From assembly GCF_913777995.1 (NCBI RefSeq), contig NZ_CAJYVE010000049.1, positions 1 through 39,081 on the forward strand: a stretch of DNA of 39,081 nt, written 5' to 3'. A program made the translations under genes and the position numbers. Under the pieces are notes generated by a model. The model ran no database searches. It worked only from the letters and a program-made list of their open reading frames with translations, and was not told the origin of the DNA. Below, one piece after another: positions 26,379-27,603 of the stretch. Each line of letters starts with the position of its first letter. The first letter of the stretch is position 1. This DNA comes from an uncultured Pseudomonas sp. (GTDB taxonomy: Bacteria; Pseudomonadota; Gammaproteobacteria; Pseudomonadales; Pseudomonadaceae).

Positions 26379-26575
26379 GGCGGCAAGCTCATTGATCTGA
26401 GGCCACCGGATGCCCGCTGCTAAACGAACAAGGGTGGCGGCTTTGACGCGGGTTAGCAGACCGGTGAGCTTGCAAACCGGCGCACGCGAACGTGCCCCAC
26501 GCAAAGCCGCCATAGGCGATCTTGCGCATGCAAGCTTTATCAGGCTGCTAAACCCGATCGCTGATGTTCAGCGAC
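26379..26575 (-). ncRNA. Structured leader of copy 1 (candidate RNA switch)
   Basis: In transcript order: hairpin A (TCGCTGA-N3-TCAGCGA, 26558-26574), upstream arm TTTAGCAG (within 26545-26556), upstream variable segment AGCTTGCA (26529-26536), stem arm GGCGGCTTTG (26502-26511), a UUCG hairpin GCACG/CGTGC (26482-26495), hairpin C (CCGGT/ACCGG, 26461-26480) with TGCAAGCTCA in its loop, middle arm CTGCTAACCCG (26449-26459), CAAAGCCGCC (26436-26445), downstream arm GTTTAGCAG (26417-26425), and TGAGCTTGC (26383-26391) just before the start codon. The loop and the middle arm can pair either upstream or downstream. Pairings are by inspection and are supported by compensating changes in copy 2. Confidence 0.65.
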
Positions 26576-26668
26576 GAAGGCAGCCTAGTCAGGGGCATTT
26601 GCACACGCAAGGGTCGGCGATTCTCTCGGAAATTTCCTTCAAGAGATAGAGAGGCATCTTGCAATTAC
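26543..26668 (-). repeat. 126-bp block identical to 27309-27434
   Basis: Every base from the upstream TTTAGCAG arm through hairpin A, the candidate promoter and a GGAAATTTCC palindrome (26628-26637) is the same in both tandem units, offset by 766 bp. Divergence begins sharply at both edges. Recent duplication or gene conversion would explain it. Confidence 0.95.
26582..26610 (-). promoter_or_regulatory. Candidate promoter of copy 1
   Basis: On the leftward strand, TTGCGT (26610-26605) and TAGGCT (26587-26582) are 17 bases apart, a partial sigma-70 match. It would place the transcript start near 26575, immediately before hairpin A. A perfect GGAAATTTCC palindrome lies about 20 bases upstream of the -35 box as a possible operator. 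Confidence 0.35.
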
Positions 26669-26756
26669 ACCCTCGAGGGGGGCTGCAGATCGGCTTTGAG
26701 CGCAGCAAGCTTCCCGGCTGAAGACAATACTGTTTGGTTAGGCGTCATGTGGCCCG

Positions 26757-26847
26757 GTGGGAGCGGCTTTAGCCGCGAAAGCGCCAGGAAATTCACTGCA
26801 TCTGTGGTGAGCATGCGTCGCTTCTCGGCTGAAGCCGGTCCTACAGG
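26757..26847. repeat. REP/BIME inverted pair between the tandem units
   Basis: GGTGGGAGCGGCTTTAGCCG and CGGCTGAAGCCGGTCCTACA form an inverted pair around the same spacer as the unit at 16992-17083, from which it differs at only a few positions. It separates copy 1's promoter region from the end of copy 2's gene. Confidence 0.85.
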
Positions 26848-26884
26848 GCAAAGACCGGCTTGCGGCACACGCCGGTAGGTGACT

Positions 26885-27139
26885 TCAGCCGCGATCAACC
26901 ATCTGGCTGGCGGACAAAGGCCATTGGTCGAGCACCTGGTCCAGCGCCTGATGAGCCTGGGTGATCAAGTGCATACCAGCCAGGGCCAGGTGTCGCGGCG
27001 GGCCTTGCAGGTTGTCGGCGCTTTCGGCAGTGGTGGCGGTGGCGCAACGCAGTAGCTCGACGGCGTGGGCGATGCGGCATTCGAGGAGGGTCAGCAGGTC
27101 GGGTGAAACGGGTGGGTCTGGAACCAGCTTCTTGGTCAT
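26885..27139 (-). CDS. DUF3077/DUF6124-like small protein, tandem copy 2
   Basis: 84 residues starting MTKKLVPDPPVSPDLLTLLECRIAHAVELLRCATATT. It has the same layout as copy 1; most differences are in the first few residues and near the C-terminus. Its Shine-Dalgarno AGGGA is 7 bases before the ATG and lies inside an 8-bp hairpin (27148-27170) and inside the segment that can pair with the leader loop, so translation should depend on leader folding. Function unknown. Confidence 0.75.
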   Translation of the reverse strand: MTKKLVPDPPVSPDLLTLLECRIAHAVELLRCATATTAESADNLQGPPRHLALAGMHLITQAHQALDQVLDQWPLSASQMVDRG

Positions 27140-27341
27140 GACATTTTCCCTGGGTTGAGGCCACCCAGGGTTCGCTGCTAAACGAACAGGGGGTGGCGGC
27201 TTCGTCGCGGGTTAGCAGACCGGGGGAAAATGCAAAAGACCGGCGCACCCGAAGGTGCCCCGCGCGAAGCCGCCATAGGCGGTCCGTGCGTGACATTTTC
27301 CTGAGTCGGGCTGCTAAACCCGATCGCTGATGTTCAGCGAC
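27140..27341 (-). ncRNA. Structured leader of copy 2 (candidate RNA switch)
   Basis: Same plan as copy 1: hairpin A (27324-27340), upstream arm TTTAGCAG (in 27311-27322), variable GGAAAATG (27294-27301), stem arm GGCGGCTTCG (27265-27274), UUCG hairpin GCACC/GGTGC (27245-27258), CCGG-flanked loop with CATTTTCCC (27224-27232), middle arm CTGCTAACCCG (27208-27218), CGAAGCCGCC (27195-27204), downstream arm GTTTAGCAG (27175-27183) and GGGAAAATG (27142-27150) over the Shine-Dalgarno. The loop can pair 8 bp upstream or 9 bp downstream, as in copy 1 but with different sequence. The stem TTCG/CGAA replaces TTTG/CAAA of copy 1, a compensating change. Confidence 0.65.
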
Positions 27342-27434
27342 GAAGGCAGCCTAGTCAGGGGCATTTGCACACGCAAGGGTCGGCGATTCTCTCGGAAATT
27401 TCCTTCAAGAGATAGAGAGGCATCTTGCAATTAC
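27309..27434 (-). repeat. 126-bp block identical to 26543-26668
   Basis: Second copy of the promoter-and-hairpin block. It carries the same GGAAATTTCC palindrome at 27394-27403. Confidence 0.95.
27348..27376 (-). promoter_or_regulatory. Candidate promoter of copy 2
   Basis: The same TTGCGT-17-TAGGCT arrangement as in copy 1, within the identical block, with a predicted start near 27341. Confidence 0.35.
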
Positions 27435-27494
27435 GCCCTGGTCGAGGGCCGGCAGATCGGCGTTTACCCCAGGCGGCAGGGCCCTGCGGATCCT

Positions 27495-27586
27495 TGTAGG
27501 AGCGAGCTTGCTCGCGAAACGGGCCAGTAAGGTCGCCGCATCTGCTGGAGCACGAAGCAGCCTTCGCGAGCAAGCTCGCTCCCACA
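27495..27586. repeat. REP/BIME with near-perfect inverted arms
   Basis: TGTAGGAGCGAGCTTGCTCG (continuing to 27518) is inverted against the arm at 27563-27586, with one mismatch. It is of the same type as the element at 23871-23963 and lies between the end of the rep gene and the second leader's promoter. Confidence 0.85.
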
Positions 27587-27603
27587 AATGTGAACTGCGC
27601 TGG

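Follow-up and report, generated by a model that had tools for sequence, protein, structure and literature searches.

The window analysed here is a stretch of 39,081 nucleotides from an uncultured Pseudomonas sp. (contig NZ_CAJYVE010000049.1 of assembly GCF_913777995.1), and it contains two leaders about 760 nt apart, each standing before one of two similar DUF6124 genes (84 and 83 aa, 90% protein identity). Both copies are located on the minus strand, where "upstream" means the larger coordinate. An Rfam scan of the whole window revealed exactly four matches above the gathering threshold, all of them within these two leaders; each leader contains a C4 antisense RNA (RF01695, gathering threshold 45 bits) and a c4-a1b1 element (RF03163, gathering threshold 46.7 bits), and no further Rfam family exceeded its threshold in the window. 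The parts of each leader follow the same order, namely a1-b1, the C4 RNA with its segments a' and b', and a2-b2 at the start of the gene, with the DUF6124 gene coming next (Table 1). Both leaders are very probably C4 antisense RNA modules of the phage P1 immI kind, present as chromosomal copies; they belong to a known RNA family and do not represent a new riboswitch.

Table 1. Elements of the two leader-gene units, with positions in the window.
Element	Position	Strand	Remarks
Copy 2, candidate sigma-70 promoter	27348-27376	-	TTGCGT - 17 nt - TAGGCT, read from the sequence; -10 overlaps the 5' end of the RF03163 match
Copy 2, c4-a1b1 element (RF03163)	27303-27354	-	52.9 bits
Copy 2, a1, TTAGCAG	27311-27317	-	7 bp with a'
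Copy 2, b1, GGAAAATG	27294-27301	-	8 Watson-Crick bp with b' (9 with G-U)
Copy 2, C4 antisense RNA (RF01695)	27189-27280	-	72.1 bits
Copy 2, putative mature C4	27192-27274	-	by analogy with P1
Copy 2, b', loop of third hairpin, GCATTTTCCC	27224-27233	-	pairs with b1 and b2
Copy 2, a', single-stranded, CTGCTAA	27212-27218	-	7 bp with a1 and with a2
Copy 2, a2, TTAGCAG	27175-27181	-	pairs with a'
Copy 2, b2, GGGAAAATG	27142-27150	-	over the Shine-Dalgarno region; 9 bp with b' (10 with G-U)
Copy 2, DUF6124 gene, 84 aa	26885-27139	-	PF19619, 1.6e-11
Copy 1, candidate sigma-70 promoter	26582-26610	-	TTGCGT - 17 nt - TAGGCT, read from the sequence
Copy 1, c4-a1b1 element (RF03163)	26537-26588	-	50.9 bits
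Copy 1, a1, TTAGCAG	26545-26551	-	7 bp with a'
Copy 1, b1, AGCTTGCA	26529-26536	-	8 bp with b'
Copy 1, C4 antisense RNA (RF01695)	26430-26517	-	79.0 bits
Copy 1, putative mature C4	26433-26511	-
Copy 1, b' loop, TGCAAGCTCA	26465-26474	-	pairs with b1 (8 bp) and b2 (9 bp)
Copy 1, a', CTGCTAA	26453-26459	-	7 bp with a1 and with a2
Copy 1, a2, TTAGCAG	26417-26423	-	pairs with a'
Copy 1, b2, TGAGCTTGC	26383-26391	-	just 5' of the start codon; 9 bp with b'
Copy 1, DUF6124 gene, 83 aa	26127-26378	-	longer frame 26127-26513 matches PF19619 at 4.1e-11

Pairing segments and likeness to phage P1

A preliminary description of this stretch had reported that each leader possesses an upstream, a middle and a downstream segment, the middle one being complementary to both others, and a second set of arms that can pair in the same way; the former correspond to b1, b' and b2, and the latter to a1, a' and a2. 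All arms were found at the places described, with 8 and 9 bp for the first set in each copy and, for CTGCTAA with TTAGCAG, 7 bp up and down in both copies, and the downstream segment was rightly placed at the start region, just before the start codon in copy 1 and over the Shine-Dalgarno region in copy 2. The statement that the segments differ completely between the copies, within nearly identical surroundings, is true of b1, b' and b2, which are replaced between the copies, with indels, but not of a1, a' and a2, which are identical. A stretch of 126 nt, which stops just after a1, is the same in both copies. When the b' loops are paired across the copies, 4-6 bp are obtained, and base-shuffled loops matched both observed pairings in 1 case out of 5000 for each copy; the summed a' + b' duplex energies, with the cost of opening the structures left out, are -22.9 and -21.0 for the cognate and -13.9 and -11.9 for the crossed combinations.

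The annotation of the P1 record (AF234172) lists a1, b1, C4 (77 nt), a2, b2 and then icd, with C4 acting on a2/b2 of the icd-ant mRNA; the same script applied to P1 gave 7 bp for a' with both a1 and a2, 7 bp for b' with b1 and 8 bp for b' with b2. With P1 as the yardstick, a' and b' are complementary in both copies to a1/b1 as well as to a2/b2 ahead of the regulated gene (7 bp for a, 8-10 bp for b including G-U pairs), and both copies contain the ATGGCGG...CCACC found in the C4 family consensus. The modules resemble P1 immI (c4-icd-ant) in the order of the elements, the C4 fold, the position of b2 before the start codon and the a and b pairings, which in P1 comprise 7 bp and 7-8 bp, respectively. 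They differ from it in being chromosomal rather than part of a known phage, in occurring as tandem copies and in their target; the icd and ant genes that follow in the P1 immI operon are absent downstream of both copies, and DUF6124 genes are found instead. A covariance model built in the present study from 35 C4 sequences, with P1 left out of the training set, finds the P1 C4 at 45 bits; C4 RNAs were found with Rfam and with this model, while a regular-expression search for C4 gave nothing. The intergenic repeat families of P. fluorescens were considered as a name for the modules and rejected, as the part of PMC2718517 that was available contains nothing linking the two.

A CTAnnCTG element is located upstream of 10 of the 11 modules of the window's genome and of only 3 of the 51 modules of another Pseudomonas genome (G049), and the comparison does not show a promoter common to the genus. 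Two further repeats were observed in the surroundings: a repeat of about 135 nt between the modules (about 26709-26844), REP-like by its look, which has 85-92% identity to several other places of the same genome, and a 25-nt inverted repeat upstream of copy 2 (27494-27518 and 27563-27587, 96% complementary, 44 nt apart).

Folding of the C4 domain and of the whole leaders

The isolated C4 domain is predicted to take the family fold in copy 1 (-46.3 kcal/mol, z -5.09) and in copy 2 (27193-27274; -49.2 kcal/mol, z -5.75), and in both folds the third hairpin carries b' in its loop and a' is unpaired. The stems covary, with both sides changed in 15 of 24 pairs over the 35 sequences (shuffled mean 7.5); 98.2% of the cells of the consensus structure pair over these sequences, and all slid versions drop to 34-49%, though the structure was drawn from the same 35-sequence alignment, which favours it.

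These folds bear on the two-state leader proposed in the preliminary description, in which b' would pair by turns with b1 and with b2 of one and the same RNA, the ribosome site being hidden or exposed accordingly, and no separate C4 RNA would be formed. The complementarity of b' to both b1 and b2 of one transcript suits such a switch, and so does the minimum-energy fold of the whole copy 2 leader, where the C4 stem is broken and all 9 b2 bases pair with b' in cis; the copy 1 leader, in contrast, retains the C4 fold in its minimum-energy structure and shows neither b'-b1 nor b'-b2 pairing. Moreover, the middle segment belongs to a conserved C4 domain with covarying stems, whose fold in isolation is strong and leaves a' unpaired and b' in a loop, and the P1 homologue is a separate RNA. 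A cis alternative thus keeps some likelihood, for copy 2 above all, but a two-state leader is not needed, and we regard it as unlikely; an antisense RNA acting in trans is the preferred reading. RNAcofold runs on the four C4-leader combinations returned no intermolecular pairs; loop-loop pairing being outside what this program can represent, the result speaks neither for nor against pairing in trans.

Distribution and address matching of the modules

C4 and DUF6124 occur together across the genus. C4 was found in 54 of 59 sampled genus genomes (53 above the family cut-off), with a median of 14 and a maximum of 54 copies, and in 18 of 274 genomes of a class sample, a count that includes the window's genome, the other 17 (of 273) carrying 1-6 copies; both multi-genome searches used stricter filters, with which weak matches are lost. 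DUF6124 is present in 47 of the 59 genus genomes, its counts correlate with those of C4 (Spearman 0.88), and it was found in none of the five genus genomes without C4. The window's genome (92% complete) contains 11 C4 and 8 DUF6124 matches; an open frame follows C4 in all 11 modules, encoding DUF6124 in eight, a Bro-N anti-repressor-like protein in two and, in one, a short product without Pfam match. The two Bro-N modules (one on contig 31, scanned, and one on contig 29, near-identical by eye) provide a link to the phage immI arrangement. G049, available as one contig, contains 55 C4 matches, 52 of them above the cut-off; 35 of its 41 DUF6124 genes are preceded by a same-strand C4 at a distance of up to 600 nt, and 20 of the 55 C4s are without DUF6124. 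Six further non-DUF6124 frames of G049 were scanned, revealing one DUF3077 (PF11275, 1.4e-31), one Bro-N and four frames without a Pfam match above the cut-off. A tblastn search (E 0.01) with the copy 2 DUF6124 protein gave no match among 50,697 phage records and matches to three Pseudomonas plasmids among 72,556 plasmid records. Many matches to one module (L086) begin at query position 1270 and end near the stop codon, with the flanking genes excluded, and look as if the whole module were the moving unit.

Address matching was scored in 167 modules from 85 genomes or contigs, comprising 51 from G049 (of 55; L112, at 45.6 bits, and L113-L115, below the cut-off, were left out), 11 from the window's genome and 105 others. 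The 105 are loci chosen by a high C4 score or by likeness to the window or G049 sequence; they represent 99 of 101 matches of one search (two being duplicates of other places) and 6 of 7 of another (P1 being omitted). Exact a'/a2 matches of at least 7 bases are present in 160 of the 167 modules and comprise 36 different 7-mer addresses; of 8098 draws, 53 found an a address in the a2 region of a module that is addressed differently. Within the windows searched, a' can form at least 7 bp with a2 in 164 modules and with a1 in 126, and 123 modules allow both; for b' and a minimum of 6 bp, the counts are 160 modules for b2, 146 for b1 and 140 for the two together. Pairing is less constant at the upstream than at the downstream sites. 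The preliminary description had proposed a conserved RNA device whose pairing changes in step between copies, and had named missing complementarity in homologous leaders as evidence to the contrary; homologous leaders do show the complementarity, and the proposal is supported to that extent.

The b'/b2 score averages 19.5 for cognate partners and 11.9 (sd 0.19) for permuted ones over the 167 modules. By the joint a + b score, a module's own downstream target is the best in 43 of the 51 G049 modules (42 with slightly different windows), and in the window's genome the cognate target ranks first in 8 of 11 modules, including both window copies, and second in the other three. A ranking of G049 modules by RNAduplex on loop and stem letters performed poorly, placing the cognate a + b first in 4 of 51 cases downstream and 18 of 51 upstream, likely because the stem letters and the common UCCU/AGGA dominate; the cognate mean (-26.8) was still better than all permutations (mean -22.7, best -24.3). 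The contiguous-helix score on trimmed windows was adopted after this poor result had been seen. Avoidance of shared addresses inside a genome was not supported by a cross-recognition test, which was noisy, since at a backbone identity of 0.6-0.9 same-genome pairs cross-match as often as different-genome pairs or slightly more (132/633 versus 1139/6865 at a C4 backbone identity of 0.7-0.8); at an identity of at least 0.9 the counts are 1/8 and 163/306 (Fisher p 0.03), but the pairs are too few, and the different-genome group includes orthologues.

A relative of copy 1 (L138, in genome G435) shares with it the neighbouring acetyl-CoA hydrolase-like gene (89% identity between residues 9 and 429), while the helicase gene on the other flank of copy 1 was not found in the G435 stretch fetched around L138. 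The b address of L138 is close to that of copy 1, and its b' pairs with its own b2 over 10 bp and its own b1 over 7 bp; compared by hand with the b'/b2 pairing of copy 1, one A-U pair has become G-C, a double change, and one G-C pair has become G-U. Given the shared neighbour and the similar address, copy 1 seems to have been in place first, and copy 2 to be a duplicate that has acquired a new b address. The same observations weigh on the view that the modules constitute a repeat family without function, which spread together with the gene and in which the pairing is an ancestral leftover of no present use. Some G049 copies do look decayed, with the target frame absent or broken or with weak cognate pairing; however, the addresses vary between copies while complementarity is kept across the 36 a addresses, and the compensating change is found beside the same gene, where drift would be expected to break the pairing, so that this view appears very improbable compared with retained antisense function.

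Other tandem sets, which were chance finds and not a sample, give a mixed picture of address change beyond the window and Pseudomonas ovata. In P. ovata (L060), three tandem C4-DUF6124 modules that are 91-92% alike, with near-identical proteins, all differ in their b address, which in every case matches b1 (6-8 bp) and b2 (7-9 bp) of the same module. The loops of a pair in G467 differ, and one copy matches its own b2 over only 5 bp and that of its neighbour about equally; a pair in G500 has different a addresses, but its b addresses largely overlap and the b loops fully cross-match. One address is common to both members of a pair in G010, the upstream copy of which is without a normal gene start, and a G049 pair about 1 kb apart (L087/L088) has different loops, one of them with a weak cognate rank.

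Proposed action, the DUF6124 product and significance

The sequences establish family membership, the architecture, the matched addresses and the conservation of the pairing. The most likely explanation of the module, as deduced from the comparisons above, is that C4, once excised from the leader, acts in trans to repress the gene of its own module. A single transcript, starting at the candidate promoter, would comprise a1-b1, the C4 RNA, a2-b2 and the DUF6124 gene; the C4 domain would be freed from it, probably by RNase P as in P1, giving a stable RNA of about 79-83 nt with two sticky segments, the single-stranded a' and the hairpin loop b'. This RNA would pair with a2 and b2 of its own mRNA and, b2 being located just before the start codon, would block the entry of ribosomes, again by analogy with P1. 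In P1, blocking icd translation also halts transcription into ant. The a and b sequences would serve as an address; copies 1 and 2 have the same a address and different b addresses, and each C4 should consequently silence its own gene more than that of its neighbour. The P1 C4 is described as being excised by RNase P (PMC5320573), and a 4-nt difference in this region is said to abolish the cross-reaction between P1 and P7 (PMC5320573, citing Citron & Schuster 1990).

Searches of NCBIfam, PHROG and PADLOC with the copy 2 DUF6124 protein gave no match, and a sequence comparison with the PDB revealed no relative; the predicted structure is a helical hairpin, a shape too common to tell the function. 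A motif of the P[DNS][PLS]P type (VPDPP, TPNPP) is present near the start of 41 of 62 script-picked frames after C4, some of them non-DUF6124, and P1 Icd begins with MVNANPC; the C4 module may include the first codons of the gene. A DUF3077 pseudogene with a one-base insertion is mentioned for a furfural-tolerant P. putida in the available part of PMC9630843. An addition to trans repression by C4 would be an addiction system resembling type I toxin-antitoxin pairs, in which C4 would keep a harmful DUF6124 protein silent and the copies would be retained because their loss, or a mismatch, has a cost. The gene beside C4 in P1 is icd, an inhibitor of cell division according to a note in the P1 record, and the modules are numerous and self-contained, as such a system would have it; against this, the search of PADLOC was negative for the copy 2 protein at E 1, and the other 6 of the 41 DUF6124 genes of G049 have no C4 within 600 nt upstream. 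We consider this extension of the repression model improbable.

The C4 family and the presence of many C4-like RNAs per genome are already known; the scale on which they occur in Pseudomonas, and their independent addressing there, may be new. According to a table in Weinberg et al. 2010 (PMC2864571), c4 antisense RNA occurs in Proteobacteria and phages, and c4-a1b1 in gamma-Proteobacteria and phages. The scores place the window elements in the corresponding Rfam families (RF01695, RF03163); the target genes and the address divergence seen in Pseudomonas are not mentioned in the available passages of that paper. Group 1 of A. baumannii AB5075 includes 21 similar C4-like sRNA sequences with variable pairing segments and with reads suggesting processing at a GGW motif (PMC5320573). 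The Pseudomonas modules resemble this group in the number of C4-like RNAs per genome and in their variable pairing segments; unlike that group, whose targets were left unassigned in the available part of the paper, each carries its own matched target gene. Among the papers found in a mainly open-access literature for these RNAs and proteins, no title or opening of an abstract describes addressed C4-DUF6124 modules in Pseudomonas.

Taken more broadly, a phage immunity device would have turned, in Pseudomonas, into a collection of as many as about 50 self-addressed antisense switches spread over the genome. Each would silence the small gene that belongs to it, and duplicated modules would take a new address (b1/b'/b2, sometimes a1/a'/a2) and become independent of the parent; we find the case for and against this wider picture evenly balanced. 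If the addresses work as in P1 and P7, one bacterium would possess dozens of natural RNA repressor-target pairs built on one scaffold. The modules would then constitute a natural set of RNA regulators and would allow a test of how an RNA address written in three places can change once its gene is duplicated, without loss of control on the way; they would also offer an initial approach to DUF6124 and DUF3077, two protein families of unknown function.
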